This document shows, in pieces, positions 5,107 to 38,162 of a stretch of DNA of 39,753 bases. The notes under the pieces were generated by a model, which worked only from the letters and a program-made list of their open reading frames with translations, was not told where the DNA came from and did no database searches. Origin of the DNA: a virus. Position numbers and translations under genes: made by a program. Location of the stretch: IMG/VR virus record IMGVR_UViG_3300009176_000049, positions 1 through 39,753 of that record; one strand, 5' to 3'. Within the stretch, counting starts at the first letter, position 1, and each line of letters starts with the position of its first letter.

Positions 5107-5502
5107 ATGGACGCGAAGCAGGTCGACGAGGCGTTTGAATCACTGGCTAGATACTGCACGTTCCTATGGCACGACGAGCGGGACGGCACGAGCGAGGCCG
5201 ACCAGTTCAAGACCGAACTCGCCCGCATTCTCAACCGCGAACCCGGGACGGGGGTGGTGCCGGAGGACGACGGTGAGCCGACCACGAAAGACTGGTTAGA
5301 GAGCATCGGATTTGTCAGCGAGCACGGACGATTCGCCCGCGGTCAGTTGCAGTTCACGTACTTCGCCGGATGGAATGCGTGGTGGGCGGTCAAAGGCCAG
5401 CCCCACGTGTCATCTCGTCTGGTTGACGGACTCAACACTCGCGGCCACGTCCGCCGGCTACTCGCGGCCCTCTCCCTCGCACCGGAGGCCGGGCCCACCT
5501 AG
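5107..5502 (+). CDS. Hypothetical protein, paralogue of the 1735-2172 gene
   Basis: A 131-residue protein. The N-terminal helix (VDEAFESLARYC) is followed by a second helical segment, and the C-terminal half has TTKDWL, GQLQFTYF, AWWAV and RGHVRRLLAAL, matching the layout of the 1735-2172 product. This is the last gene of the plus-strand cluster. Its TAG stop lies in CTAG at 5499-5502, and the last gene of the opposing operon uses the same CTAG for its own stop. The function is unknown. Confidence 0.65.
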   Translation: MDAKQVDEAFESLARYCTFLWHDERDGTSEADQFKTELARILNREPGTGVVPEDDGEPTTKDWLESIGFVSEHGRFARGQLQFTYFAGWNAWWAVKGQPHVSSRLVDGLNTRGHVRRLLAALSLAPEAGPT

Positions 5503-5714
5503 CGCCCGCTCCGCCCCTTCCCGGGCTTCCGCTTCGCCTGGCCCTGCACCGGGCCGGGCGATTCGGCGAGGCAGGGGCCGTAGTCGATCTGCCCGTCGAA
5601 CGTACCCGGATTCGACGGCGGGGTGCACTGCTCCTCGGCCGGGCACGCCTTCCCGTTCGCCGGGTCCGGGACCCAGCCGACCCCGACCCGCCACGTGTAC
5701 TTGCAAGGGAGCAT
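5499..5714 (-). CDS. Small Cys-rich protein, last gene of the late operon
   Basis: A 71-residue protein. ATG at 5714 has GGAGGAA just upstream and shares one base with the stop of the previous gene (TGATG). Four cysteines (LPCKYT, GKACPAEEQC, YGPCL) and the SNPGTF-D-G segment suggest a compact disulphide-bonded or metal-bound domain, followed by a basic Pro/Gly/Lys tail. Longer overlapping frames here start upstream inside the previous gene and are shadows. The role is unknown. As the terminal gene it probably belongs to the envelope and lysis group. Confidence 0.6.
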   Translation of the reverse strand: MLPCKYTWRVGVGWVPDPANGKACPAEEQCTPPSNPGTFDGQIDYGPCLAESPGPVQGQAKRKPGKGRSGR

Positions 5715-6343
5715 CAATTCCTCCCGATGCAGTCGAGCACGTCGGTGGCCCCGGGGTGGCCGAGCCGTTCGGCCTCGGCGTAGTACGACCGGGCCGCGGT
5801 CGTCTTCCCGCTCGCGTACAGGATCGCGGCCCGGTAGTACGGGACCAGCGACTCGTCCCGCGGGTTGGCGTTCGCCAGTTTCGCCAGCATCAGGCCCGCG
5901 AGCCCGTACTGTTGGGTGTTGATGTAAATCTCGATCATGGGCGGGAGGTAGCATTCCGGCGACGCCTGGTGCGCGCCGGCGTCCTGGTAGTGACCCAGCG
6001 CCTCTCGGTAGTCGCCCCGGAGTTGGGCCGCCGCCCCCGCGAGCATCGGCGCGGACGGACCGAGACGGGGCAGAATCGCAGCCATCGGGCGGACCTCCGT
6101 ACGGGGTGGGTTGGCACTAATACACAGACTGGCGACGGCGACGGCGAGGAAAATGCCGGGGAGTTTCGGGACGCCGACGACGGGCGTGGTCACCTTGTCG
6201 GGCTTCGGGGTGGCGGCGAGCGACCGCTCGATGAGGCGGTCCGTCTTGACAACGGCGTCGGTCAGGGAGCTTTTCAGGGAGTACAACCCGCCGGTAATGG
6301 AGTCCTGATACTCGACCGGGGTCAGGTCATGTGTCGGGGTCAT
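5714..6343 (-). CDS. Membrane-anchored TPR-like protein
   Basis: A 209-residue protein. A hydrophobic segment (LPGIFLAVAVASLCI, about residues 60-74) precedes a helical-hairpin array from about residue 95: AAAQLRGDYREALGHYQDAG, a second pair around EIYINTQQYGLAGLMLAKLA, and a third around AILYASGKTTAARSYYAEAE. These match the A/B helix rhythm of tetratricopeptide repeats. A GTG at 6193 would give a version starting right before the hydrophobic segment, which would then act as a signal peptide. The annotated start overlaps the end of the upstream gene by 17 bases. It may scaffold protein contacts at the membrane during lysis or particle release, but that is inference. Confidence 0.6.
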   Translation of the reverse strand: MTPTHDLTPVEYQDSITGGLYSLKSSLTDAVVKTDRLIERSLAATPKPDKVTTPVVGVPKLPGIFLAVAVASLCISANPPRTEVRPMAAILPRLGPSAPMLAGAAAQLRGDYREALGHYQDAGAHQASPECYLPPMIEIYINTQQYGLAGLMLAKLANANPRDESLVPYYRAAILYASGKTTAARSYYAEAERLGHPGATDVLDCIGRN

Positions 6344-6749
6344 CGGAATCTTCCTCCGCCCTCCGGTACAGTTCGGTCGCCTCAGTATCGGTCAAGAGTT
6401 CCCGCCCCTTCATCCGCTCAATGAGCTGAATCAGGAGCCGGTCCTTTCGTGTGTGCTTCCGCTCGCAGTCGTTCAACTTGCGGCCCATTTCCCCGAGTTG
6501 AGTGTACACCGCCTGCATGTCGTGTTCGTGCGCCTTCTTCCGTTCGAGCATGAGCGCCTTGAAAAAACCGACCGCGTTTTGCTGCTCGACGTGGGCGACG
6601 TCGATTTCCTTCTCCCGGTCTTCCCACACGATCCGGGCATCGGCTTTCTTGTCAGAACGTCTTTGCTTCCGCATCGTGTACCACAGGGTACCGAGGGCGG
6701 TCAAGACCCCGGGGGCGGAGGACAGTACCACGGTTAAGACATCTCCCAC
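6327..6749 (-). CDS. N-terminal membrane segment plus coiled coil, spanin/holin-like
   Basis: A 140-residue protein. A membrane segment (VLTVVLSSAPGVLTALGTLW, residues 4-23) is followed immediately by a strongly basic patch (RKQRRSDKKA) and then a long charged helix with heptad-like Leu/Val/Met spacing (about residues 40-125). This is the architecture of inner-membrane spanins and of some holin accessory proteins. Its neighbours are also membrane or coiled-coil proteins, which supports a lysis-module role. I cannot assign a specific family, and no second-spanin lipoprotein is obvious. Confidence 0.55.
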   Translation of the reverse strand: MGDVLTVVLSSAPGVLTALGTLWYTMRKQRRSDKKADARIVWEDREKEIDVAHVEQQNAVGFFKALMLERKKAHEHDMQAVYTQLGEMGRKLNDCERKHTRKDRLLIQLIERMKGRELLTDTEATELYRRAEEDSDDPDT

Positions 6750-6788
6750 ACAGGCCTCTCCGGTCTACGTCGCCCTGGTGTCCGACGA

Positions 6789-7391
6789 CTACGACTCCTC
6801 CAGCCGCTGCGCCACCCCGGCGGCGATCTTGTCGACCGCGGCGGGGGCGATGGACACCACCCGGACGGCGGTCGGGTCCCCGACGCTCGCCGTCGCGTGC
6901 TCGACGTGTTCGGCGACGCTCGACGTAATCTTCCCGCCCAAGTCCACGATCCGCTGCTTCTCCTCCTGATCGTGGTACGCCTGCTCCGCCAGTTCCGCCG
7001 CGGCCATGTCCTCCGGGTCCCGGGTCATGTGAGCCACCCGCCGCAGTGCTATCATCGACACCTTCAACTGGTTCGACATGGAACTGTTCACCAGCGTGTG
7101 CACCGCCCGGCCCACCTCCGCGATCCCGTCGAGTTTCTCGCTCTGTCGGGCGGTCTCGGCGACCAGTGTTTTCTTCACCTCCTCCACCTTCCCCGCCGCC
7201 ACCTCGGCCTTGCGGCCTACCTCCTCCACCTTCCCCGCCGCGGCCTTCGACGCCACCGCCGCCTGCTCCGTGAGTTTGTTCAGCCGGACGACAAGGAAGG
7301 CCATGACGGCGGTGAAGCAGGTCCCCAGGAACGTGACCACGACGGTGACGATCTGGACGAGTTCCGAGGACTCCGCGAACAGAAGAAGCAC
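6789..7391 (-). CDS. Membrane-anchored coiled-coil protein, holin-like
   Basis: A 200-residue protein. One membrane segment (TVVVTFLGTCFTAVMAFLVV, about residues 16-35) is followed by a coiled coil with an internal duplication: AAAGKVEEVGRKAE and VAAGKVEEVKKTL differ by few residues. The later VHTLVNSSM segment is frequent in phage proteins annotated as holin-like or lysis-associated. The C-terminus (VAEHVEHATASVG and beyond) is helical. Predicted topology is one transmembrane pass with a long soluble tail. It probably belongs to the lysis module, but the family is not certain. Confidence 0.6.
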   Translation of the reverse strand: MLLLFAESSELVQIVTVVVTFLGTCFTAVMAFLVVRLNKLTEQAAVASKAAAGKVEEVGRKAEVAAGKVEEVKKTLVAETARQSEKLDGIAEVGRAVHTLVNSSMSNQLKVSMIALRRVAHMTRDPEDMAAAELAEQAYHDQEEKQRIVDLGGKITSSVAEHVEHATASVGDPTAVRVVSIAPAAVDKIAAGVAQRLEES

Positions 7392-7409
7392 TACGTCACC
7401 CCGGGGTTA

Positions 7410-7577
7410 TTACCCTTTGATCGGAGCCCCGAACACCTGCCAGCCGAGCAGGCCGAACAGAATCAGCAACAGCCCCGTACTGGCGTACAGTGCGTACTCT
7501 CCGAAGATGCGGACACCGAAGAGGGCCGAGATACACCACAGGATCATAAGCAGCCAGAACAGCAATCCGCGCGTCAC
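7410..7577 (-). CDS. Small two-segment membrane protein, holin candidate
   Basis: A 55-residue protein from GTG at 7577 to TAA at 7410. It has two hydrophobic segments separated by a short polar turn: GLLFWLLMILWCISALF (residues 4-20) and STGLLLILFGLLGWQVFG (residues 33-50), ending APIKG. Size and topology fit a class II-like holin or a small phage membrane protein of the LLGWxVFG type. Longer frames drawn over this stretch are Arg/Pro-rich shadows. It lies between two other envelope-type genes. Confidence 0.7.
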   Translation of the reverse strand: MTRGLLFWLLMILWCISALFGVRIFGEYALYASTGLLLILFGLLGWQVFGAPIKG

Positions 7578-7631
7578 GGTGCACCGTCTTTCGGGGCGAG
7601 GGAGAACGGGCCGGGCCAGCCCGCGAGGGAA

Positions 7632-8030
7632 CTACGGTCTCGGGACCGGGTTTGAGAACGTCGCCGTCAACCCCGCCACGGCACTCCCGCCGACGGTGCC
7701 GGTCAGGTCCAGCGAGAAAGGTCCTACCGAGCCGTCGTCCCAGGTCGCCGTGACGCTGATCGTCACCGCGCCCGGCTTGACGCCGTGGGTCTGTACGGTC
7801 GCCCCGCTCGGCGTGTCGAGGGTCAGGGTCGACGGGTCCGACGACGTCGCGGTCAACGTCGCCACGCCGTCGATCGGCACTTGGTTGCCGGCCTTGTCGA
7901 CGCCGAAGACGGTGAACGACCCGTCCTCGTTGTCCGCGATGCTGAAGGCGTCCCCGGCCGCCTTCGCGCCGGCCGCGGCCATCATCTTGCGGGCGCCCTT
8001 CGGGGCCATCTTGCAGGTGAACTTCGCCAT
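7632..8030 (-). CDS. Ig-like (Big-type) domain protein
   Basis: A 132-residue protein. A short helical basic start (MAKFTCKMAPKGARKMMAAAG) precedes a beta-sandwich pattern: DGSFTVFGVDKAGNQVPI, VATLTATSSDPSTLTL, AVTISVTATWDDGS and ATFSNP. This succession of TATSSDP and VTATWDDGS strands is typical of bacterial Ig-like (Big2-type) domains on phage tails, capsids or cell-surface proteins. It has no signal peptide. It may decorate the virion or bind the host surface; which one is not resolved. Confidence 0.65.
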   Translation of the reverse strand: MAKFTCKMAPKGARKMMAAAGAKAAGDAFSIADNEDGSFTVFGVDKAGNQVPIDGVATLTATSSDPSTLTLDTPSGATVQTHGVKPGAVTISVTATWDDGSVGPFSLDLTGTVGGSAVAGLTATFSNPVPRP

Positions 8031-8052
8031 GAGACAAAACTCCTACTCGGGT

Positions 8053-8247
8053 TTACCGGTCCTTGTTCGGACCGAATTCGGCGCCAAGCCCCACGACGGG
8101 ACCGGGCGGTTCGGGCGGTTCTGGTGTCAGTATGGTGGCGATCTTTTCCACCGCGACCGCGATCCGTTCGAGGATCGGGGTAATCTCCACGAGAGACTTC
8201 CCCACCCCCTCGTCCGCCCGCAGCGTCACGTCTACATGGATTCGCAT
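8053..8247 (-). CDS. Small hypothetical protein
   Basis: A 64-residue protein. ATG at 8247 is preferred because GGGGGAG lies just upstream on the minus strand. An amphipathic helix (VEITPILERIAVAVEKIATIL) is followed by a Pro-rich linker (PEPPEPPGP). The frame extends 44 codons further upstream, but that part has atypical composition and overlaps the next small gene. The family is not recognised. Confidence 0.55.
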   Translation of the reverse strand: MRIHVDVTLRADEGVGKSLVEITPILERIAVAVEKIATILTPEPPEPPGPVVGLGAEFGPNKDR

Positions 8248-8299
8248 CGTCTCCCCCGGGCGCCCCGTTCCCGTCTCGGAACAGCCCCGCCCCCGGCTT

Positions 8300-8437
8300 T
8301 CACCAGAGGCGGGACCGCAGGTAGGATTTGCAGAGCGGCGATGGTTCGGGCCTCGTTTCCCGGCGCTCGTCCGCCTCACGCCAACCCTCGGCCGCTTCGA
8401 TCAGCCGTGACGCCCGGGTCAGGGCTTGCTTCGTCAC
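8300..8437 (-). CDS. Small helical hypothetical protein
   Basis: A 45-residue protein from GTG at 8437 to TGA at 8300. Its GTGA start overlaps the stop of the upstream gene, the same coupling seen repeatedly in this genome. The sequence is a single charged helix (RASRLIEAAEGWREADERR) followed by a Pro/Cys-containing basic tail. It fills an otherwise empty gap of about 190 bases in a densely packed operon, which is the main reason to accept it. Confidence 0.5.
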   Translation of the reverse strand: MTKQALTRASRLIEAAEGWREADERRETRPEPSPLCKSYLRSRLW

Positions 8438-8724
8438 CCACCGAGAAGGCCGAGCAGCATCTTCATCAGGGCGGCGATGAGGGCTTGACCCTGCGGACTC
8501 TGAAGGAACGCCATAATGGCGGCCAGAATCGTACCGTCGCCGATGGCCGACACCTTCCCGACTTCCGACTCCGTCTCCGGACCGGCGAGGGCCGCCGCGG
8601 CGTCGATGGCCTCGCCGTCGACTTGGCCCATCACGTCGTTAATCTGCCGCCGGGAGTAGCCCTCCTTCGACAGTTCCCGGCGGGCGTGGACCTTCGCGTA
8701 AAACGTCAGCAGCGGATGAGACAC
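8434..8724 (-). CDS. Small protein with hydrophobic C-terminus
   Basis: A 96-residue protein from GTG at 8724. The binding site GGAGGTGATC seven bases upstream is a full match to the 16S rRNA anti-Shine-Dalgarno end, so this start is firm even though the frame continues 21 codons upstream. The N-terminus is helical and basic (YAKVHARRELSKEGYSRRQI), and the C-terminus is hydrophobic (ILAAIMAFL and ALIAALMKMLLGLLGG), possibly a membrane-active segment. Such a strong site suggests high expression. It may belong to the lysis module. Confidence 0.65.
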   Translation of the reverse strand: MSHPLLTFYAKVHARRELSKEGYSRRQINDVMGQVDGEAIDAAAALAGPETESEVGKVSAIGDGTILAAIMAFLQSPQGQALIAALMKMLLGLLGG

Positions 8725-8726
8725 GT

Positions 8727-8739
8727 TAGGATCACCTCC
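8727..8739 (-). promoter_or_regulatory. Near-perfect ribosome binding site for the 8434-8724 gene
   Basis: The minus-strand sequence GGGAGGTGATC lies directly before CTAAC and the GTG start. AGGTGATC pairs with the canonical 16S rRNA 3' end without mismatch. It is by far the strongest such site I noticed in the operon. Confidence 0.7.
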
Positions 8740-8814
8740 CCTCACGAGGAATGGAACCCGACCGCCCGCCGGGCGCCCCGTCTTCACAAAGGCGGTCCCG
8801 GCGGGCGTGGCTTG

Positions 8815-9306
8815 CTATCGCGGACAATTCCCGCCCGGACACCCGCCCCGCATGACGCCCCGGAACACCGCCCGACCCCGATCCACGAACATCGAGAACC
8901 CCCCGACGGGCGCGAGCCGGGGCGGGTTACTCTGCACCGCCGCCGTCATCGGCAAAGGCACGCTCGCCACCGGCGCCGCCGGCTGGACCGGCTCCGGGGC
9001 CTTCATCGCCGGGGCCACGGCGGGGGCGGGAATGACCGCCACGGGCGCGATCTTGGCGGGCACGACGGTTTCCCGCGTGACGGTCCGGGTGCGGGAGACG
9101 CGAGCTAATGCGGCCCCACCGGTACACCCGGCCCGCGTCGCCATGGACCCGGCGCAGCCCGTGCGGACCGTGGCCGTGCCCGCGCAGCCCGTCCGGGGGG
9201 CCGTGGCGGTCGCCTGGGCGCCGGAACAGCCGCTCCGGTGGAGCAGGTGGGCGTCGGGGGAGACGGGGGCGGTCAGGAGACCACCGGCGAGAATGAAACT
9301 GTAGAT
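8815..9306 (-). CDS. Secreted Cys/Pro/Ala-rich protein with apparent AUC start
   Basis: The frame encodes a typical planctomycete secreted protein: a signal peptide (YSFILAGGLLTAPVSPDA), then repeated Gly-Cys units (SGCSGAQ, TGCAGTA, TGCAGSM, AGCTGGA), a Pro/Ala/Val-rich linker, and a Gly/Cys ending (GGCPGGNCPR). No ATG, GTG or TTG precedes the signal peptide in frame. The codon at the right place is ATC at 9306, six bases after AAAGGAAG. A GTG at 9313 is in another frame and sits directly on the binding site. An internal ATG at 9144 would lose the signal peptide. It is either a true AUC start or a start-codon mutation. Confidence 0.6.
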   Translation of the reverse strand: MYSFILAGGLLTAPVSPDAHLLHRSGCSGAQATATAPRTGCAGTATVRTGCAGSMATRAGCTGGAALARVSRTRTVTRETVVPAKIAPVAVIPAPAVAPAMKAPEPVQPAAPVASVPLPMTAAVQSNPPRLAPVGGFSMFVDRGRAVFRGVMRGGCPGGNCPR

Positions 9307-9337
9307 GGTGCACTTCCTTTCGGTTGGGGTTGAGAGA

Positions 9338-9781
9338 TCACTTCTTCGGGATTGCAGCTTTCACTTCGTCCGTCTTCTGCCCCACGGCCGCGACTGCCTT
9401 GTGGGTGTCGTCGAGCTTCTTCAACGTCTCATCCTGCTTCGCCTCGGCCCGGCCCGTGGTATACCGCAACTCTTTCTTGACCTCGACCGCGTCGGCCGCG
9501 GCGGTGTCGACCTTCGCAGCGGTCGCGTCGATCTTCGCGCCGTTGACCTCCTGCGTGGCGTGGATGTTGTCCAGCTTCGTCCCGTGCAGACTCGATATCA
9601 CCCCCTGCACGACCTGCCCGACGGTGTTCATGAGCGTCCCCACCGCCACGAGGACGAGGATGACTTTCGTCGCGTCCTTCCACCACGGGACGGGATCGGG
9701 CGGAGGCGGTGCGGGCGGTTCGGTCGGCGGCACGATGGTCTCCCGGGGTGGTTCGGTGCGCGGGGTGTAGGGCGGGGGCAC
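9338..9781 (-). CDS. Pro-rich, membrane-anchored coiled-coil protein
   Basis: A 147-residue protein. The Pro-rich N-terminus (residues 1-31) is followed by WWKDATKVILVLVAVGTLM (about residues 33-51), a membrane segment, and then a long coiled coil with Asp/Glu/Lys and regular Ala/Val (NGAKIDATAAKVDTAAAD, KLDDTHKAVAAVGQK). It resembles the membrane-plus-coiled-coil genes at 6327 and 6789 in layout but not in sequence. It is a candidate lysis or envelope protein; the family is not recognised. Confidence 0.6.
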   Translation of the reverse strand: MPPPYTPRTEPPRETIVPPTEPPAPPPPDPVPWWKDATKVILVLVAVGTLMNTVGQVVQGVISSLHGTKLDNIHATQEVNGAKIDATAAKVDTAAADAVEVKKELRYTTGRAEAKQDETLKKLDDTHKAVAAVGQKTDEVKAAIPKK

Positions 9782-9784
9782 GGG

Positions 9785-10663
9785 TCAGTTTCTCCAGCGT
9801 CCGAACAAGCCGATGCGGCCGGACGACGACGAACACCCGCCCGGACCGCAGGTCGGGTACGACGGAACCGACTCCGCGGGGACAGAATTATTCCCGACCA
9901 TTGAGGTCGATGATTCTGGTGAGAGGGATAATTCTGGATCGGCCACCCACTCGTACCAACAGTTGCCGCCGGAACAGTGCTTGACGTAGTGCCCACTGCT
10001 CGCCTGTTGCGGCGCGGTCGCGAGCTGGGCCCGGATCGCGTTGCACATCGCGCAGTACGGGGAATTGCAAAGCGGTCGCGAGTACAGTTGACCGCCCCAC
10101 GCGGCGGCCGTCACTTGCTGCAATGCCACGGGCTGCGGGCGAAGGTAAATCCAGGTGTCGCCGTTCTGAGTCGCGGCCACCGGCGGCCGGTGCATGTAAC
10201 TGGCGAACGCGGCCAGCTTCTCCAGTCTCGACTTCAACTTCGCCAGCACGTCGGGCCAGAGGTAAGCCACGCCCACGTCGGCCTGCACGTCCGTCGTGAT
10301 CGCATCGCCTTCGACAATCGTCACGAGGTTCCCCAATCCGGCGGCCCGAACGCATTCTTTCGCGGCGGCCGCGCGGGTCGGGTCGATCTCGACCCCCGTT
10401 ACTCGGCATCCCCACCGCTGGGCCGCAGCAATGCACCATCGCGCGTCGGCCCCGCAGCCGAAATCGACGAACCCAATCGTCGGCTTCGGGAGCAGGGCCA
10501 GGACACGTGCGATTTCACTTTGTGGAGTCGGGGCCGCATCGGCGTCGGCCTGACTCTGGACAGGTGTCCGTTCCCGCGCCGCCCGGGCCAGTGCCAACGC
10601 GGCGGCGGCGTCCGCGTCGGGGGACGCGCCGGCGAGGAATCCGAGAAGGAGGAAGGTGGTCAT
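9785..10663 (-). CDS. Exported SAM-dependent methyltransferase-like protein with Cys-rich tail
   Basis: A 292-residue protein from ATG 10663. A short hydrophobic N-terminus (TTFLLLGFLAGA, residues 2-13) looks like a signal peptide. Residues 62-120 form a class I methyltransferase fold start: FVDFGCGADARWC (motif I, glycine-rich SAM loop), VTGVEIDP (acidic residue for the ribose) and NLVTIVEGDA (motif III). The C-terminal third has C-x4-C-x2-C (LCNSPYCAMC, about residues 199-207), further Cys residues, and a Gly/Ser ending with GLFGRWRN. The signal peptide is the odd feature, since SAM is cytoplasmic. It may be a degenerate or membrane-attached enzyme; the substrate is unknown. Confidence 0.65.
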   Translation of the reverse strand: MTTFLLLGFLAGASPDADAAAALALARAARERTPVQSQADADAAPTPQSEIARVLALLPKPTIGFVDFGCGADARWCIAAAQRWGCRVTGVEIDPTRAAAAKECVRAAGLGNLVTIVEGDAITTDVQADVGVAYLWPDVLAKLKSRLEKLAAFASYMHRPPVAATQNGDTWIYLRPQPVALQQVTAAAWGGQLYSRPLCNSPYCAMCNAIRAQLATAPQQASSGHYVKHCSGGNCWYEWVADPELSLSPESSTSMVGNNSVPAESVPSYPTCGPGGCSSSSGRIGLFGRWRN

Positions 10664-10671
10664 GGCGCCCC

Positions 10672-11619
10672 CTAAATCAGCCAGTGGATCAGGTCCGCAG
10701 GCCACCCGTCAAACCCGCTGAACGTCCACGAGTCGTCTTGGGCGAGCATCGCCGCGAGATCTTTCTTCAGAATCCAGAAGGAGTACGACGGGATCGGGAT
10801 CGGGCCGATCGGTCCGTCTGGCTCGCCGGGACCCCAACTCTGGTCGACGAGGAAACACTCGCCATCGCCAGCCAGGTCCGGAGTCCAGCCCTGTACCGTC
10901 ATTTGGTGCGACCACGTTCCGCCGCGGTGGGCGCGGCCGTTGCTGTCGCGGGTGAACATGACCGATCGACTGGACCGGATGCCCATGAACCCGACGTTCG
11001 ACGCCACCGTGAATCCGTACCCGTTGACGATGAGGTCGCGGCCCTGGTCCGTCGTCTTCACTTGGGCCATGTTCTTGACGAGGTGATTTTTCGCCTTGGC
11101 CTTGTACTCCGTCGGCACTCCCCGTGCCCCGTACTGGCAGGCGAGCGTGTCCGAGTTCTCGTTGTCGCCCGGCTCGGTCGTGTCCTCGTACGTCAACTCG
11201 CCGCCTTGGACCGCACCCCGGCCAACCGCCGCCCCGGTGCAGCCGTCGTCGTTCTCGTTGTTCGGGTTGCCGCCGAGCATACCGGCGATCTCCCGGCCGA
11301 GTCCGTAAATGATCGCGTGGTTCGTCTGCTTGAACACGAGCGGGGCACCGGCGCCGATCATCACGCACTGCATTACGTCCAGGTCCCGCTTCAGGCCCCG
11401 CGACGTGCAGGTCCCCCGGGGCTGGTTCTGCGAGGGTATGTAATCCCCGATCACCTTTTTGCACACGTCGTGCAGGACGACGGGGCGGTCTGGAGCGGCC
11501 TTGGCCCCGACGATGCCGGGGGCGGCCCGGTCGACGTCGGGCTCTTCGCCCCGCATCGAAATCCAGGCCCGCGCATCATTGACGTGAGCCGACGCCAGTT
11601 CCTGTCGATATCCGAACAT
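10672..11619 (-). CDS. Papain-like (C1-type) cysteine protease
   Basis: A 315-residue protein from ATG 11619, nine bases after AGGAAG. Key elements are in papain order: PSQNQPRGTC with Gln64/Gln66 and the candidate nucleophile Cys71, GGTWSHQM with His238, and DQSWGP at 259-264 where papain has NSWG. A Gln/Asp therefore stands at the usual Asn position. A VASNVGF strand precedes the His segment, as in other C1 enzymes. There is no signal peptide, so a cytoplasmic enzyme released by a holin or a virion protein is possible. It lies in the membrane-protein module after the tail genes, where an endolysin is expected. Activity is inferred from motifs. Confidence 0.7.
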   Translation of the reverse strand: MFGYRQELASAHVNDARAWISMRGEEPDVDRAAPGIVGAKAAPDRPVVLHDVCKKVIGDYIPSQNQPRGTCTSRGLKRDLDVMQCVMIGAGAPLVFKQTNHAIIYGLGREIAGMLGGNPNNENDDGCTGAAVGRGAVQGGELTYEDTTEPGDNENSDTLACQYGARGVPTEYKAKAKNHLVKNMAQVKTTDQGRDLIVNGYGFTVASNVGFMGIRSSRSVMFTRDSNGRAHRGGTWSHQMTVQGWTPDLAGDGECFLVDQSWGPGEPDGPIGPIPIPSYSFWILKKDLAAMLAQDDSWTFSGFDGWPADLIHWLI

Positions 11620-11632
11620 CGTGGAGGCTTCC

Positions 11633-12685
11633 TTACTTGAGGGAATCGAGCAGGCCCGCGATCCGGTTGAACTGTTCTTTCGCCACGGCTCGCTTCGCCG
11701 TGTCCAGCGGGACGGTCGCACCACGGCCGAGCTTCGCGTCCAGTTCGGTCGCAATCACTTCCCGGAACGTCTTTCCGGTCGGTAGCGGCGCCACGGTATT
11801 TCCCGCCTTCGCCATATCCGCATAGAGGGCCGCAACGGTCGTTAGGGTCGGATCATCGACGGTCGATTTGTCCTTCGCCGCTTGACGATAAATTCCGGCG
11901 AGGGCAGCGGCACATGCTGCGGGGGAACCGTCGGCCTTGAACGCGGCGGAGAGGGACGGGAAAAGCGGGTCGGTGGGTTGTGGCGCCGCCCCGACCGTCA
12001 CCACCGCCGTCGCCGACCGGTCCCCCTGCGTCACCACCGCCGGATAGGTTCCCGCCGCCGCGTAGGTGTGCGAGAGCGATTGATCCGGTGCCGAACCGTC
12101 CCCGTAATTGATTGAATACGGCAGGGCCGGATCGAGCCCCACCGCCTTAAACGTGGTCGAGAGTGGGGCATTGCCCGCGTTCGGTGCGGCGGTCAGGGTG
12201 AACGGCGGCGGGCGCGGCCCCGTCCCGGCGTTGACGTCCAGCATCCGCCGGATAATGTCCTTCTCCGTGAACGGGATCGCCTTCCCGGCCGCGTCCACCC
12301 GGTTCACCGTCGGCATCACGTCCAGCAGCACCTTCCCCGTCGTCTTGACCTTGATGACGTACACCCACGGCCCCTTGACCGTGACCTGTTCCGGGTCGTC
12401 CGCGTCCGGCTTCCTTCCGACGGCCACTTCCGCCGGCACGACGTACGGACCTTTCTTCTTCGAGACCGTGACGGCCCCGCCGTCGAGCGAGAACGTGGCG
12501 ACCATTTGTTCCGTGTCCGCGTCCACGATGAACCACTGGCCGACGCCGAGCTTCGTCAGCGAATCGGGCGGGGCGACGGGGGCCAGGACTTCGGGGAGAC
12601 GAACGGTCGGGGGCGGGTCGGCGGCGGCAAGCGGAAGGCCCAGAGCGAGCGACGCCAGAAGAAGCGCGGTCGGCACGAGCCGCAT
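11633..12685 (-). CDS. Secreted PKD-domain protein
   Basis: A 350-residue protein. The signal peptide is clear (RLVPTALLLASLALGLPLAAA, residues 2-22). Residues about 45-150 form a beta-rich N-terminal domain (QWFIVDADTEQMVATFSLDG). Residues about 163-232 form a PKD-type fold: APNAGNAPLSTTFKAVG, INYGDGSAPDQSLSHTY, AAGTYPAVVT. The C-terminus is helical (ALAGIYRQAAKDK and TAKRAVAKEQFNRIAGLL). It sits directly before the protease gene in the operon (13-base gap). It is probably exported to the envelope; it may bind surface polymer or protein. Confidence 0.7.
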   Translation of the reverse strand: MRLVPTALLLASLALGLPLAAADPPPTVRLPEVLAPVAPPDSLTKLGVGQWFIVDADTEQMVATFSLDGGAVTVSKKKGPYVVPAEVAVGRKPDADDPEQVTVKGPWVYVIKVKTTGKVLLDVMPTVNRVDAAGKAIPFTEKDIIRRMLDVNAGTGPRPPPFTLTAAPNAGNAPLSTTFKAVGLDPALPYSINYGDGSAPDQSLSHTYAAAGTYPAVVTQGDRSATAVVTVGAAPQPTDPLFPSLSAAFKADGSPAACAAALAGIYRQAAKDKSTVDDPTLTTVAALYADMAKAGNTVAPLPTGKTFREVIATELDAKLGRGATVPLDTAKRAVAKEQFNRIAGLLDSLK

Positions 12686-17224: not shown

Positions 17225-18583
17225 CTAGAACGAGTACACGTACACCGCCCCCGCGCCGCCCGTGCCGCCGGCCCCGCCGAGGCCGGGGTTCATTCCCACG
17301 CCACCACCGCCGCCGCCGCCACCGTTGGCCCCGCCGTTGCCGCCCGCCTTGCCCGCCGTACTCGCGGTCACGGTCGTCCCCCCGCCCCCGCCGCCGGCCC
17401 CGCCGGTCGTGGAATTCCCCGCCGCCCCGTTCGAGCCGACGGTCGGCGCCGCCCCGTCCGTCCCCACTGCCCCGCCGGTGCCCGCGGTGTAGGTCCCCGA
17501 TGCCCCGCCGGCCGCACCCGCCACGATCGCCGGGGTGGCGTTGTGGTGGCCGCCGGTGCCTCCCCCGCCAGCGCCCTTGATCGACCCGCCCCCGACACTG
17601 GAGGTCGGCGTGGCCGTGCTTCCGCCGCCCCCTCCCCCGCCCCGTTCCGCGTTGTGGGCCGTGTTGACCGTGATGGTGCCGTCCGACCCGGTACCACCCC
17701 AGACCCCGGCGACCCCCTTCGCCCCGACCACGCCCGGAAAACCGCCCACGCCGGACGTCGTCGAACCCACCGTCCCGGCCCCACCGGTTCCGCCGCCGCC
17801 ACCGCCCCCACTCGCCACCCCGGAGATCGCCCCGCCGGCCCCGCCACCGCCGCCGAATGCGGTGAGTTTGACGGCGGTCCCGAAGGTCGTATTCCCCCCG
17901 ATCCCGCCATTCCCGCCCGCAGCACCCGCGGCGCCGGGGATTCCGGCCGTGCCCGCGATCCCCACGTTGACCGCTTCCGTCGCGGCCAGATCGACGGCCT
18001 GATAAATCTCGAAGGCGTACGCCCCGCCTCCGCCGCCCGCCCCGCCCTTGGCGACGATTGCGGTGGCGAGTGATGCCCCGGCCCCGCCGCCACCGCCGCC
18101 TCCGAACATCGTCACGATGACCGTCTTCGGCGTGAACGACGTCGGCTTCGTCCAGGTGCCGGCCCCGGGCGTTTGGAACACCTGCAGGTCTACCTGTCCG
18201 GTCGCGTTCGCCGTCTTCGGCACCCCACCGGACGTGTAGGCCTGCCAGTCGCCGTTCGCGTTCCGGGTGAGGTTTTCCCCGGGCAGCACGACGCCCGACC
18301 AGAGGTGAATGATGTTCGTCCCGTCGGTGTGCAGGACGGTAATGGTGACGGCGAGCGTGGCGTGGGTATTGCGGAGGTTGATGGCCTTGACGCACCGGGC
18401 CACGCCAGATCCGGGCGAGCCGACGATGGTCGTCGTCGTCGCGGTGGAGATCAGGGTGTTCAACCGGTCGGGCGTGGCGGCGCCGGCCCCGACGCTGTCG
18501 ATGTAGTCGGCGTGGACGGAGACGGTGGCCGTCGAATCGGTGATGACTCGAACCAGGTCCGACGTCGAGGTCATGTAGATCAT
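17225..18583 (-). CDS. Glycine-rich tail-fibre protein
   Basis: A 452-residue protein. The N-terminus (TSTSDLVRVITDSTATVSVH, LRNTHATLAVTITVLHTDG, then LPGENLTRNANGDWQAY) matches a common phage tail-protein beta domain. The middle TWTKPTSFTPKTVIVTMFGGG segment is a fibre junction of the W-KP type, where Gly-rich fibre bodies begin. From about residue 160 to the end the protein is dominated by Gly, Ala and Thr, with long Gly runs and PGAAGAAGG-like turns. ATG 18583 and 18574 are both possible starts. The Gly-rich body is likely a flexible or polyglycine-helix-like fibre or tip. Confidence 0.75.
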   Translation of the reverse strand: MIYMTSTSDLVRVITDSTATVSVHADYIDSVGAGAATPDRLNTLISTATTTTIVGSPGSGVARCVKAINLRNTHATLAVTITVLHTDGTNIIHLWSGVVLPGENLTRNANGDWQAYTSGGVPKTANATGQVDLQVFQTPGAGTWTKPTSFTPKTVIVTMFGGGGGGGAGASLATAIVAKGGAGGGGGAYAFEIYQAVDLAATEAVNVGIAGTAGIPGAAGAAGGNGGIGGNTTFGTAVKLTAFGGGGGAGGAISGVASGGGGGGGTGGAGTVGSTTSGVGGFPGVVGAKGVAGVWGGTGSDGTITVNTAHNAERGGGGGGGSTATPTSSVGGGSIKGAGGGGTGGHHNATPAIVAGAAGGASGTYTAGTGGAVGTDGAAPTVGSNGAAGNSTTGGAGGGGGGTTVTASTAGKAGGNGGANGGGGGGGGVGMNPGLGGAGGTGGAGAVYVYSF

Positions 18584-20028
18584 GCGGCCCCCCGGTTAGC
18601 CAACCGCACCGCCCCGCCCCGGGCCGGAATCGTAATCGACGACGGCTGCGCGGACCGGGCGAAGAACCGGACGATCGCGTCCGTCAGATTGGCGATCCGC
18701 GTCTCGTCGTAGAACTGGGCCGACGAGTGGTCGCCGACGACGAGTTCGAGGGTGAACTCGACCATCCGGCTCGCGGTCAGCGTTTGCATGACGTCGAGGT
18801 TGTCCGCCGTCACGACCAGCGTGTCGTCCGACGCGGCCACGGCGTAGATCGACGTCCTCGGGAAACTGGTCGCGGCGATCAGGACCGGGTTGGACAGGTA
18901 CGACTTGACGGCAAAGTTCCCGTCGTTGGCCGCGTATGCCGTGTTGATGTTGGAGTTAAAGACGCCCGCGTGCATCGCGTCCAAATTGCACGCGGCTTTA
19001 ATTGCGAGGAATCCGACGTAGGTGTATCGGGAGTCGAACATCGACTGGAACAGGTCCAGCCCACCCATCGACTGACCCCACCCCAAAACTTGACCGGCGG
19101 TGATCCGGTAGTGGTCGAGGGCGTACTGGTACGCCGCGGCCTGCTGAACGACGGAGATCGGGTTGCCCCAGTTCTGCGCCGTCCCCGGCTGGCCGCCGTC
19201 CGCGTTCGACGAGAAAATCAGATAACCCGCGGCCCACAGGTCGTAGACGAATTCTTCCTTGTCCCCGCCGTACGCGGCGGGCGCCGAATAGTCCTCGCCC
19301 GCCCCGTGGAAATACTGGATCGCCGGTGGGTGATCGGTTCCGGAATCCGACCACCCCTTCGGCGGGATGACGAGCATCGGTTGCCCGTCGCCCTGAGTCC
19401 GGAAATCAAAGCGAAACGTGTCCCAGGCATTGACGTTCGACCATTGCAGGCCCGTGGAATCGCTGGCGGGGCCGAAGGTGATCAGCCCCATGCGCGTGCC
19501 GGTGAGTGGCGTCGTATCGGCCCAATCTCCGCTATTGACACCGTCGGTAACAACCGCGCCGTTGACCGTGATCGTGATCCGGCACCACCCCGGAACGGCG
19601 TAGTGGTCCCGGCACTCGATCAGGATGGTGTAGTCCGTGGCCGCGGTCAGCACCGCCGTCACTGTACTGCCGATCTGAACCGGATTCCCGGCGAGCCACC
19701 GAGTGACCTTCCAACCCACCCCCGCAAAATACCCGATCTCGTAATAAGTCTGGGCGGTCGGGGAGGCCCGCATCGCCATCAGGGCGTAATTGACGTTCGT
19801 CTGGCACCGGAGGGTGGCCGTGAAGACCTGATTCCGCTCTTCCGGCAGTGCATTAGACAGCACCAGACCGTAGTTGTTGTCCACCGACCGGACCCGGCCG
19901 TTGCCGACGAGCTGCAGGTTCCCGGTGTAGGCGGGGTGTAGCGACCATCCGCCGCCCGTCTCCGGCGTGTGGGCCGTGAGCAGGGACGCGGCGGTCCCGG
20001 TGAACGTGTCCGTCAGGAACTTGATCAA
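18580..20028 (-). CDS. Tailspike with alpha/beta-hydrolase (esterase-like) domain
   Basis: A 482-residue protein. Residues about 1-205 form a LamG/concanavalin-like beta sandwich (TDTFTGTAASLL, GWCRITITVNGAVV, ITFGPASDS). Residues about 215-455 form an alpha/beta hydrolase: HGAG at 241-244 (oxyanion region), GWGQSMGG with Ser320 as nucleophile, AASDDT with Asp401/402 and VGDHSS with His434. This is a complete catalytic triad in canonical order. Location in the fibre region suggests a tail-borne esterase or deacetylase that removes acyl groups from surface glycans. The exact substrate is unknown. Confidence 0.8.
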   Translation of the reverse strand: MIKFLTDTFTGTAASLLTAHTPETGGGWSLHPAYTGNLQLVGNGRVRSVDNNYGLVLSNALPEERNQVFTATLRCQTNVNYALMAMRASPTAQTYYEIGYFAGVGWKVTRWLAGNPVQIGSTVTAVLTAATDYTILIECRDHYAVPGWCRITITVNGAVVTDGVNSGDWADTTPLTGTRMGLITFGPASDSTGLQWSNVNAWDTFRFDFRTQGDGQPMLVIPPKGWSDSGTDHPPAIQYFHGAGEDYSAPAAYGGDKEEFVYDLWAAGYLIFSSNADGGQPGTAQNWGNPISVVQQAAAYQYALDHYRITAGQVLGWGQSMGGLDLFQSMFDSRYTYVGFLAIKAACNLDAMHAGVFNSNINTAYAANDGNFAVKSYLSNPVLIAATSFPRTSIYAVAASDDTLVVTADNLDVMQTLTASRMVEFTLELVVGDHSSAQFYDETRIANLTDAIVRFFARSAQPSSITIPARGGAVRLANRGAA

Positions 20029-25054: not shown

Positions 25055-26746
25055 TTAAGTGAACCTCGGCGCGATCTTCTGTATATTTTCGTCGATGCTT
25101 GCGAGCAGGTTGTTTTGCTTATCGCCTTGCGCGACGAGTTGTTTCCCCACACTGTCGCCGGATCCGAACTGCCCAATCGCACTACCGATCTGAAAGGCCC
25201 CGCGGGTCGCCCCGGCCACTTGAGAGAGGAGGCCGGGGATCCGGTCCGCGCCGGCCTCGCGTGCGATTCTCGCTTGGTTCCTGAGTTCTTCCAGTCGCTG
25301 TCGAGCGGCATTTTCTTCCGCACGATCAGCCGCGCCGGGCTGCTGGCCCGGCTCGAATTGCGTCAGGTCGAACCGTCTCTTTTCTCCGCCTGCATCAATG
25401 GCCTGTTTCAACAGGTCCCGCTTCTTATTGATGTCCTCAACCGTGTTCGATCCGGTAAGGATGTCGCCGAACCCAAGCTTCCGGCCGACCCAGCCCAATT
25501 CCCGATTGAGACTTTCGACGAACGTCCGCATCTGCCGGGCCATCCATGCCATCAGGTCGATCATCACCTTCGCCAGCCAGTCGGTCGCATCGCCCCACGC
25601 GAGTTTGAAACCTTTGACGACGTCGCCCCACCCGCCGGAGAACTTGGCGGTGAACTTGTTCCACTGTTCTTCAAGGTCGTTAAGGCCGGTCTGCCAGGCG
25701 AGATTCAGGCCTGCCATCGCGATCTGGCCGGCGAGTTCGATGTGCCCATTAGTCAGCGCGTCCGAGATGCCACCGATGGTCTCATCGAATACTGTTCTCA
25801 ATTTGACAAAGGTCTCGCCCAGTCCCTGAAAAAACTGAATCACACCACCGCCGCTGATCTTGTTGGCGAGTCCGGCCAGTGCCGCGAGTGTCGCGACCAC
25901 CAGCCCCATCGGCGAAACGACAAATGCGAGCACCGCCCCGATAGCTCCCCACGTAAACAGCAACGCCTTCATGGCGAACGCGGCCGCCGTTGCCGCCACC
26001 CCCAGCCCGACGAGGCCAGTCCCCGCCGCGATCAGTCCGGCCCCAACCGCGGCGAGCACCTGAAAGAGTCCCTGATTTTTCCGAACGAGTTCAGCGACGA
26101 ACGTGGCCGCGTCCGCCGCCTGAAGCGCGAACGGCAATAATGCCGTCATCGCCGTGTATTTAATTTTGTTCAGAGATTGGCCGAACGAGTCCGCCGCGTC
26201 AAGGGTCTCCTGATTGAACAGCGGGGCCTCGCCGAAGAGGCGTTTCAGGTCACCGGCCACGCGGAGGAATTTCAATCCACCTTTGCCCAACGTCTCGACC
26301 GCCTTCGCGGCCCGTTCGGACCCGTCGTCGATCGCCAATAGCCCGTCGGCGAAGTCGAGGGCGAATTCGTCGAGCGGCTTGCCGGTAGTATTTTGCTTGG
26401 CGAGTCCCTTGAGGATCGGTTCGAGGTCTTCCAGTCCGGCCCCGGCGACCTTCGCCGCGTACCCAAGTTTCGACGCACCGGACGCGGTTAGCCCGAATTC
26501 GTCCTGGAGATCCTGAAGCTGACCCGCGATATCCAACCCGCCCTTGAACAGCGCCGTGATCGGAGCAAGTAGACCGGCACCGAGGCCGATACCGATCCCT
26601 CCGGCCTTCATCAACGATTTCCCGAACCGGCCGATCCGATTGGCGATGTCGTCGAGGCCCTTGTAGTTCGGCTTGACGAAAATCTCCACGAACGCCGCGC
26701 CGGCGCGAATGGCCCCGCTCTGTCCGCCTCCCCCCGGCAACGGCAT
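25055..26746 (-). CDS. Tail tape measure protein
   Basis: A 563-residue protein. It has a glycine-rich start, several hydrophobic helices (GIGIGLGAGLLAPITALF around residue 55, and a long Ala/Val/Gly/Leu-rich stretch about 225-300), amphipathic helices between them, and a charged coiled-coil C-terminus (AARQRLEELRNQARIAREAG). This is the typical layout of a tape measure that fixes tail length and later crosses the host membrane. It is directly preceded in the operon by the overlapping chaperone genes, and it is short, so the tail should be short. No lytic domain was seen. Confidence 0.85.
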   Translation of the reverse strand: MPLPGGGGQSGAIRAGAAFVEIFVKPNYKGLDDIANRIGRFGKSLMKAGGIGIGLGAGLLAPITALFKGGLDIAGQLQDLQDEFGLTASGASKLGYAAKVAGAGLEDLEPILKGLAKQNTTGKPLDEFALDFADGLLAIDDGSERAAKAVETLGKGGLKFLRVAGDLKRLFGEAPLFNQETLDAADSFGQSLNKIKYTAMTALLPFALQAADAATFVAELVRKNQGLFQVLAAVGAGLIAAGTGLVGLGVAATAAAFAMKALLFTWGAIGAVLAFVVSPMGLVVATLAALAGLANKISGGGVIQFFQGLGETFVKLRTVFDETIGGISDALTNGHIELAGQIAMAGLNLAWQTGLNDLEEQWNKFTAKFSGGWGDVVKGFKLAWGDATDWLAKVMIDLMAWMARQMRTFVESLNRELGWVGRKLGFGDILTGSNTVEDINKKRDLLKQAIDAGGEKRRFDLTQFEPGQQPGAADRAEENAARQRLEELRNQARIAREAGADRIPGLLSQVAGATRGAFQIGSAIGQFGSGDSVGKQLVAQGDKQNNLLASIDENIQKIAPRFT

Positions 26747-31166: not shown

Positions 31167-32492
31167 CTACTTCTCCTGAGAAACGAGGACCGGCGGCCGG
31201 ACGACCGCCAGCGAATCATGGCGGGAGAGCAGGTGGCCCCCGTCGCCGATCAGTTCGTCGACCGCCCGCGTCACGCCGGGGTCCCATCGACCATCGCATT
31301 CGCCCGGAGTGCGACGGTAGTCGTGAAAGGCCAGCAGGCCTCCGGGCCGCAGGACGGTTTTGGCCGCGTCGATGTCCGCCCGGACCGACTCGTACGAATG
31401 GTCGCCGTCGATGAAGACGAGGTCGAAGACGGCGGGGAGCGTGGGAACGACCTCGGCCGCCGTTCCCTTCCGGACGGTGACCCGGTCCGCGACGCCGTAG
31501 CGGGCGACGTTCCGGTTGAACGCGGCGAGTGTTTCGCCGGGCGTCGGCGTGGCCCGCCCGTCGAACGGGTCGACCGCGAAAACGTGTTCCGCCGTCTGCG
31601 CGAGACATACGGTCGACCGGCCGCAGTACGACCCGATTTCGAGAACGGTCTTTCCTTCGGCGAGGCGGCCGAGTTCACGCCCCTCGATTTCCGTGAGCCA
31701 GCCGGGCACGTCGTGCGGGAACCGGCCGGTCGGCGTGGCGTCCGCGTCGAGGACGCTGGCCGTGAAGTATTCCGAGTCGAACGGGTCGCCCCACGGGTCC
31801 TGGTTGCCGAAGTTGATCGGCCCGCGGTGGCCCATTTTGATCTTGCGGGTCGCCCCGACCTTCAGCCCGTACTCGTGGAAGCACCGGGACAGGTTCCAGT
31901 CTTCCGGCTCGCACTCCGGCATGTACCGGTTGTGCGTCGTGTTGAAAATGATCCGGTCGTTGACCTCGAAGTGGAACTTTTTCATCTGCCTTTCGTCGAA
32001 CCGGCAGACCCAGCACCCGGTATTGAGCAGGATTTTGTAGCCCACGTCCTGGCTGGTGAACGTCTCGGGCAGTCGGCAGACCTCCTTCATTGTCAACCGG
32101 CCGTGGACCCGCCACGTATTCCCGTCCGGCCGGGCCATGGCGATCGACGTTCGCCCCCGCTGGTCCTTGATCGGCGAGACGACGCCGAGCACGTCGAGGT
32201 TCTTCGCCTCCAGTTCGTCAATCGCCTTGTCGACCCAGAAGTCTTCCGGCTGGCAATCCCCGTGGAGCATGGCGAAGTAGTCGCACCCGGGGCCGGACCG
32301 GGCGCGATTCAGGGCCTCGCACCAGAGGATGTTCATGTTCTGGGCGAGCAGACTCCCGACCTGCTGCATGATGTGGACGTCGAACCGGCCGGCGGTGGAC
32401 CGGAACAGGGCCCGGGCCGCGTGGGGCGTAATGTCCCCATGGCTCGGCATCCCGAGGAGGACGGTCTTTCGTGGCAGGTCCGTCGTCATCAA
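31167..32492 (-). CDS. Glycosyltransferase-methyltransferase fusion
   Basis: A 441-residue protein. The N-terminal half (about residues 10-250) has a GT-A-like region: DYFAMLHGDC at 71-80 holds the aspartate that would bind the metal and sugar nucleotide, followed by DVLGVVSPIKDQRG and later GHRGPINFG (221-229). The C-terminal half is a class I methyltransferase: KTVLEIGSYCGRST (281-294, SAM loop), FAVDPFDG (305-312), DLVFIDGDHSYESVRADI (357-374) and LRPGGLLAFHDY (381-392). Both parts appear intact. It lies between the major capsid gene and the cement genes, suggesting modification of capsid glycans. Substrate is unknown. Confidence 0.75.
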   Translation of the reverse strand: MMTTDLPRKTVLLGMPSHGDITPHAARALFRSTAGRFDVHIMQQVGSLLAQNMNILWCEALNRARSGPGCDYFAMLHGDCQPEDFWVDKAIDELEAKNLDVLGVVSPIKDQRGRTSIAMARPDGNTWRVHGRLTMKEVCRLPETFTSQDVGYKILLNTGCWVCRFDERQMKKFHFEVNDRIIFNTTHNRYMPECEPEDWNLSRCFHEYGLKVGATRKIKMGHRGPINFGNQDPWGDPFDSEYFTASVLDADATPTGRFPHDVPGWLTEIEGRELGRLAEGKTVLEIGSYCGRSTVCLAQTAEHVFAVDPFDGRATPTPGETLAAFNRNVARYGVADRVTVRKGTAAEVVPTLPAVFDLVFIDGDHSYESVRADIDAAKTVLRPGGLLAFHDYRRTPGECDGRWDPGVTRAVDELIGDGGHLLSRHDSLAVVRPPVLVSQEK

Positions 32493-37823: not shown

Positions 37824-38162
37824 TCACGTGTTGATTTCAACCGGCGGTCTCACCGGCTCGACGTATTTACTCTTAAACACGGGCACCGTACCCGGCGTGT
37901 CCAGTACGAGCCGGGAATCGCCATAGTTGCTCAGGTCTCTACCATCCTTGCCGTCGACCAAAAAATCAAGCGAGACGTCATGCAAAAATAGGTCCGGCGG
38001 ATGCAGAGTGAAATCCCCGTTCAACTTCGCGTCCGGCGGCAATCCGAGCCCGGTAAAGTCGATCATTTCGGGGTGGTCGATGATCTTCGGAAAAACGGCG
38101 ACCAAGAAGTCCAGCAAGGGGACGCGGATCGTTGCGTAAGAAGGAGATTCCGTTTTCATCAC
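37824..38162 (-). CDS. Hypothetical late protein
   Basis: A 112-residue protein. YATIRVPLLDFLVAVFPKII, then an acidic LPPDAKLNGDFTLHPPDLFL segment, and a beta-rich end (RLVLDTPGTVPVFKSKYV). It has no Cys and no membrane segment. Its start overlaps the stop of the terminase gene. It follows the large terminase and may be a packaging cofactor; no family is recognised. Confidence 0.55.
   Translation of the reverse strand: MMKTESPSYATIRVPLLDFLVAVFPKIIDHPEMIDFTGLGLPPDAKLNGDFTLHPPDLFLHDVSLDFLVDGKDGRDLSNYGDSRLVLDTPGTVPVFKSKYVEPVRPPVEINT

Follow-up and report, generated by a model that had tools for sequence, protein, structure and literature searches.

A papain-like cysteine peptidase as the candidate lysis effector in a gene module of a planctomycete-type phage

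We analyzed a viral DNA stretch of 39,753 bases, the complete IMG/VR record IMGVR_UViG_3300009176_000049 (hereafter, the window), focusing on the gene module that follows the tail genes in its late operon. This module is probably a lysis cassette of a planctomycete-type phage, in which the lytic effector would be a papain-like cysteine peptidase and not a recognizable peptidoglycan hydrolase. Protease-driven host lysis is suggested because the peptidase gene sits in a conserved group of genes for exported and membrane proteins, in place of a classical lysozyme or amidase. At the level of sequence, this proposal is supported by the family of the peptidase, its intact catalytic residues, the conserved cassette, and the absence of seven peptidoglycan hydrolase families in relatives. 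Phage lysis of planctomycete cells is essentially undescribed. If the proposal is true, this cassette, carried by at least 400 viral contigs, would define a new class of lysis enzyme and explain why lysins go unrecognized in these viruses.

The product of 10672-11619 is, by sequence profile and structural model, a papain-family (C1A) cysteine peptidase with putative catalytic activity. Its gene starts with an ATG at 11619, with an AAGGAAG ribosome site upstream. As a single sequence it matched no Pfam or PHROG family, and its sole match in the PDB was one unrelated chain (E 0.7); single-sequence searches of phages, plasmids, IMG/VR, and GTDB contigs returned no relatives. Relatives surfaced only through whole-genome searches in Gemmataceae and by a profile of 31 sequences. 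This profile matched 118 PDB chains at E ≤ 1, and the 60 listed were papain-family proteins. Pfam Peptidase_C1 matched 20 of the 31 relatives. An AlphaFold2 model of the window peptidase (predicted local distance difference test score, pLDDT, 82) was matched by Foldseek to C1A structures with a probability of 1.00, including Lpg2622, xylellain, and cathepsins. The best structural matches, xylellain and Lpg2622 (PDB 3ois, 6a0n), are bacterial proteins and not products of phage lysis genes, and they share only 12-14% identity with the peptidase. Because the profile, the Pfam matches of the relatives, and AlphaFold2/Foldseek agree, the papain assignment exceeds chance. An earlier, preliminary description of the window had already read a papain-like protease here, and the structure prediction that it proposed as a check returned the papain fold.

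In the alignment of relatives, Q66, C71, H238, and SWG261-263 are invariant. The catalytic Cys and His were present in all 110 aligned relatives, including viral ones, and the third residue was Asn in 102 sequences and Gln in the other 8. The window peptidase, one of these 8, has Q66, C71, H238, and Q260 at the catalytic positions. Its QSWG motif recurs in seven relatives (L230, L247, L284, L285, L291, L292, and L343), and none of these eight peptidases has a clear membrane anchor.

The peptidase profile detected the gene in at least 400 IMG/VR contigs, where its surroundings are conserved. Among non-redundant viral contigs, the exported PKD protein, termed c1, was encoded within three genes of the peptidase in 37 of 51, the gap to the upstream gene was 20 nt or less in 41 of 49, and a small gene with one or two transmembrane (TM) segments lay within five genes in 30 of 51. 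Typical orders are holin-like gene, c1, peptidase, and C-tail protein, as in L286 and L329, and two successive two-TM genes, a c1-like gene, the peptidase, and an exported thioredoxin (WCGPC), as in L341 and L358. A holin-like gene directly precedes a soluble peptidase in L245, L252, and L264, and in L156 the c1, peptidase, and C-tail genes have overlapping starts and are followed by a two-TM gene. Ribonucleotide-reductase-like or dUTPase genes adjoin the cassette in L341, L358, and L322, which suggests that these carriers are lytic phages.

The peptidase was soluble in 67 of 78 viral contigs but predicted to be membrane-anchored in most Gemmataceae copies; of these copies, about 25 of 33 show a hydrophobic N-terminal segment in hydropathy analysis, which the window copy lacks. 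A separate small membrane gene lay within three genes of 30 of the 43 soluble peptidases and 6 of the 26 anchored ones (Fisher p 2e-4), a comparison that was defined post hoc on related sequences and whose p value is uncorrected for relatedness. The split resembles that between holin/endolysin and signal-anchor-release (SAR) endolysin systems, in which a soluble effector goes with separate small membrane genes and an anchored effector does without them. It differs in that the effector here would be a protease and the membrane proteins match no holin family. Small size, one to three TM segments, and proximity to the lysin candidate, taken as the mark of a holin, were found for the window proteins at 7410-7577 and 9338-9781.

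No peptidoglycan hydrolase was found among the approximately 50 window genes with Pfam and PHROGs, as the preliminary description had also stated, and the peptidase itself matched no catalytic domain of a known peptidoglycan hydrolase family in these collections. None of Amidase_2, Phage_lysozyme, M23, NlpC/P60, SLT, and M15_4 occurred in 26 papain-bearing virus records (38-181 kb), nor did Amidase_3 in 42 records; control genomes gave matches in each family search. Likewise, none was found among 80 genes of two cassette-bearing Gemmataceae prophages (Pfam, with unassigned genes rescanned) or among 100 representatives of the non-structural genes of the terminase clade described below. The absence of peptidoglycan hydrolases in relatives is strong but not final, because most records are fragments and the family searches in the virus records covered seven families.

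Relatives of the window terminase, at 44-50% identity, come both from viral contigs and from genomes of Planctomycetota and Lentisphaerota, which makes a planctomycete-type host likely for the window phage. The head and tail genes of the window are common to these terminase relatives, and none of the genes that the window carries between about 22.9 and 5.7 kb had a match in them. In the members of this clade from other planctomycetes, one slot between head and tail genes held a protease in 24 of 29 records. In 14 records the occupant was a papain-fold peptidase, either a lipoprotein or exported, together with a thioredoxin-like partner; trypsin-like proteases took the slot in 8, a C1 peptidase accompanied by a holin-like gene in 1, and L156 has a member of the window peptidase family there. 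The thioredoxin-like partners gave a weak DsbC match, and in four phages an immunoglobulin-like (Ig-like) domain resembling that of c1 is fused to a trypsin-like protease. The lipoprotein peptidases of Pirellulales were not detectable as sequence relatives of the window peptidase (hhalign probability 1.9%); they have a papain fold (AlphaFold2 pLDDT 71, Foldseek E ~1e-3) and agree with it in fold only.

For the holin role, export and its timing, redox assistance, the substrate, and lysis itself, we infer the following course. During late expression, Sec would export c1 and the protein in the thioredoxin slot, and the soluble peptidase would build up in the cytoplasm. The product of 7410-7577, of 9338-9781, or of both would then act as a holin and pass the peptidase through the inner membrane. 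In the envelope, the peptidase would cut peptide bonds in peptidoglycan stems or cross-links, in envelope proteins, or in both, and the cell would burst. Where relatives carry an N-terminal TM anchor, peptidase export would be Sec-dependent and fewer separate holin-like genes would be required, as for SAR endolysins. The exported thioredoxin (WCGPC) of some relatives probably serves to maintain the peptidase Cys in reduced form or to open envelope disulfides. Redox activity is proposed only for relatives with CxxC, because a profile comparison of c2, the small exported partner downstream of the peptidase, with thioredoxin-like proteins was not significant. As a wider and rather doubtful extension, a large group of planctomycete phages might lyse their hosts mainly by envelope proteolysis, with exported thioredoxin opening disulfides and unrelated proteases (papain-like, C39-like, and trypsin-like) interchanged in the role.

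A special case of the lysis proposal, possible although we do not favor it, is that the peptidase is an ordinary papain-fold endolysin of a new catalytic family whose only targets are the peptide bonds of peptidoglycan. Such bonds are thought to be cut by CHAP, by NlpC/P60, and by the N5 domain of LysA, which is of the papain family. The BFVD structural matches of the peptidase, which favor the lysis proposal in general, include phage proteins named lysin A and papain-fold phage proteins named peptidoglycan-binding or muramidase. Gemmata obscuriglobus has peptidoglycan containing diaminopimelic acid and lysozyme-sensitive sacculi (PMC4432640). In mycobacteriophage LysA, the N5 domains belong to the papain family (C39-like; PMC3314691), which gives a phage lysis gene with a cysteine peptidase of this family, as is proposed for the window module. 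N5, however, is one domain of a modular peptidoglycan hydrolase, whereas the window peptidase stands alone, is C1A-like, and belongs to a family with c1 and thioredoxin partners. Against an ordinary endolysin, its nearest folds in Foldseek are true proteases, it has no attached cell-wall-binding domain, and the equivalent slot in related phages holds trypsin-like proteases; we know of no chymotrypsin-fold enzyme that cuts peptidoglycan.

The preliminary description had proposed a protease as the main lysin on the grounds of a partly proteinaceous planctomycete wall. The proposal itself gains from the cassette, the soluble/anchored split, and the hydrolase-free relatives, but its rationale is not supported: because Gemmata has lysozyme-sensitive peptidoglycan, a purely protein wall is an outdated premise. 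A disulfide-bonded protein sacculus in planctomycetes belongs to older work, as cited in PMC2754498. If the peptidase is the lysis effector, it would be a direct tool for asking which part of the planctomycete envelope bears load, peptidoglycan or a disulfide-linked protein layer. A parallel exists in PeiW and PeiP of methanogen viruses (PMC2989375, PMC4592898): there too the host wall is unusual, and lysis is the work of a viral cysteine peptidase instead of a glycosidase or an amidase, as proposed here for the window peptidase. These pseudomurein endoisopeptidases differ in belonging to another peptidase family, in their C-H-D triad, and in having a proven substrate. To our knowledge, no thioredoxin/c1 cassette has been reported with them. 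Neither planctomycetes nor papain are mentioned in a 2025 survey of lytic proteins from prokaryotic viruses (PMC12596118).

It is also conceivable, but unlikely, that the real lysin is encoded by an unrecognized gene of the module or by the part of the genome that is missing, the protease being an accessory, for example in spanin-like disruption of the outer envelope. Many exported genes of the window have no assigned function. The window is a linear fragment whose terminase gene is cut off at the right end, and its ends, searched in IMG/VR, were present in no other contig, so a lysin may lie in the missing part for this one phage. The hydrolase searches point the other way, since 26 to 42 larger relatives contained none of the seven families and no hydrolase appeared in the two prophages or the 100 clade representatives. 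A canonical endolysin elsewhere, the other outcome that the preliminary description had named as overturning its proposal, was thus not found in the 26 larger relatives for the families searched.

Whole-genome searches found peptidase relatives in 32 of 95 Gemmataceae genomes, and the profile had matches in 14 of 392 genomes sampled from the whole phylum. The constant partners in the Gemmataceae loci are c1 upstream, equivalent to the window PKD protein, and c2 downstream; at 29 loci the C-terminal helical domain of c1 is kept beside the peptidase. Prophages account for many of the Gemmataceae loci (G052:C12, four in G130, G144, and others), and in them the trio either ends the tail operon or separates tail from head genes; G144 has four copies of the cassette. 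Other trios of c1, peptidase, and c2 stand alone amid housekeeping genes with no phage genes nearby (L243, L244, L256, L259, L261, L262, and L263, some without a detected c2), and they may be remnants, domesticated copies, or the original host module. The existence of such chromosomal copies makes a non-lytic use of the trio possible. Shared by phages and chromosomes, the cassette might thus serve in lysogenic conversion or in the host envelope, with its exported protease set changing the surface, excluding superinfection, or acting in competition. Besides the stand-alone trios, the phylogenetic tree fits this alternative, as phage and chromosomal copies interleave with at least five changes (the window groups with L230, support 100/99), and so does the membrane anchor of most chromosomal-type peptidases. 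We nevertheless regard it as improbable, as the cassette lies inside late operons with overlapping genes, also in apparently lytic phages, and its carriers have no other recognizable lysis enzyme. As a separate observation, L240 (6199-10886) and L241 combine a terminase-like ATPase, an ABC-type ATPase, a GNAT acetyltransferase, c1, peptidase, and c2, followed by host genes; this element, kept in two Gemmataceae genomes, may be a minimal and possibly domesticated phage element.

A virion-associated protease for maturation or entry is very hard to credit: although the peptidase adjoins tail genes and the window copy lacks a signal peptide, exported partners accompany it, and a virion structural or maturation role, which the preliminary description had named as an outcome that would overturn its proposal, appears unlikely because relatives are anchored by an N-terminal TM segment or, in the case of the analogous family of Pirellulales, carry lipoprotein signals, and the capsid protein has its own maturation-protease-type match (phrog_4523/133).

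Apart from the post hoc nature of the soluble/anchored comparison, the coverage of the hydrolase searches, and the stand-alone chromosomal trios, four further points weigh against lysis by the peptidase. Gln replaces the usual catalytic Asn at position 260, and the window peptidase sits on a long branch in the tree. No TM gene of the window or its relatives matched a holin family in Pfam or PHROGs, and the candidate holins are named by topology only. Finally, a divergent lysin could escape profile searches.

The genes of the module lie on the - strand in one closely spaced run (Table 1). They include the exported PKD protein, the membrane-plus-coiled-coil proteins, and the two-segment membrane protein of the preliminary description, all of which were recovered.

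Table 1. Genes of the peptidase module in the window
Feature	Position	Strand	Characteristics
Exported partner c1	11633-12685	-	Signal peptide, PKD/Ig-like domain (PKD_4 1.5e-5), C-terminal helical domain of ~110 aa
Papain-like (C1A) cysteine peptidase, 315 aa	10672-11619	-	No signal peptide or TM segment; proposed lysis effector
Exported protein in the thioredoxin slot of relatives	9785-10663	-	Class I S-adenosylmethionine (SAM)-methyltransferase-like domain, CX4C motifs
Membrane and coiled-coil protein, holin-like topology	9338-9781	-	Hydropathy; no Pfam or PHROG holin match
Small Cys-rich protein ending CPGGNCPR (CX4C)	8815-9144	-	CX4C tail common to c2 proteins; start uncertain
96-aa protein with hydrophobic C-terminal helix	8434-8724	-	By eye like C-tail proteins adjoining the peptidase in relatives (L156:18311-18577, c18-type)
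132-aa Ig-like (Big_2-like) protein	7632-8030	-	Weak Pfam Ig-like matches
55-aa protein with two TM segments, candidate holin	7410-7577	-	Topology only
TM and long coiled-coil protein, 200 aa, accessory lysis candidate	6789-7391	-	Sequence
TM and coiled-coil protein, 140 aa, accessory lysis candidate	6327-6749	-	Weak matches to phrog_4098 and phrog_5328
TM and TPR-like protein, 209 aa, near operon end	5714-6343	-	Weak TPR match

The protein in the thioredoxin slot matched Methyltransf_11 with 24.9 bits (cut-off 21.2), and its N-terminal signal/ALALA motif resembles those of c2 proteins by eye. A SAM-methyltransferase-like domain would be unusual for a periplasmic protein. The Cys-rich open reading frame (ORF) might be longer (8815-9305, -) and exported if it starts at an ATC near 9305, behind a AAAGGAAG site; this longer frame overlaps a + strand ORF with coding-like codon use.

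The late genes of the window run on the - strand from the terminase (38159-39748) through portal, capsid, tail genes, tape measure (25055-26746), tail tip, and receptor-binding region to the peptidase module. Within this operon, 31167-32492 encodes a protein whose N-terminus looks glycosyltransferase-like by eye and whose C-terminus is a methyltransferase, and related phages have several glycosyltransferase-like genes after the tail genes. A tail-region protein (18580-20028) has an alpha/beta-hydrolase motif (GQSMGG) and may be an esterase or depolymerase that acts on surfaces. A partial ORF at 1-1008, which lies on the + strand and so runs against the late operon, resembles a beta-helix tail spike.

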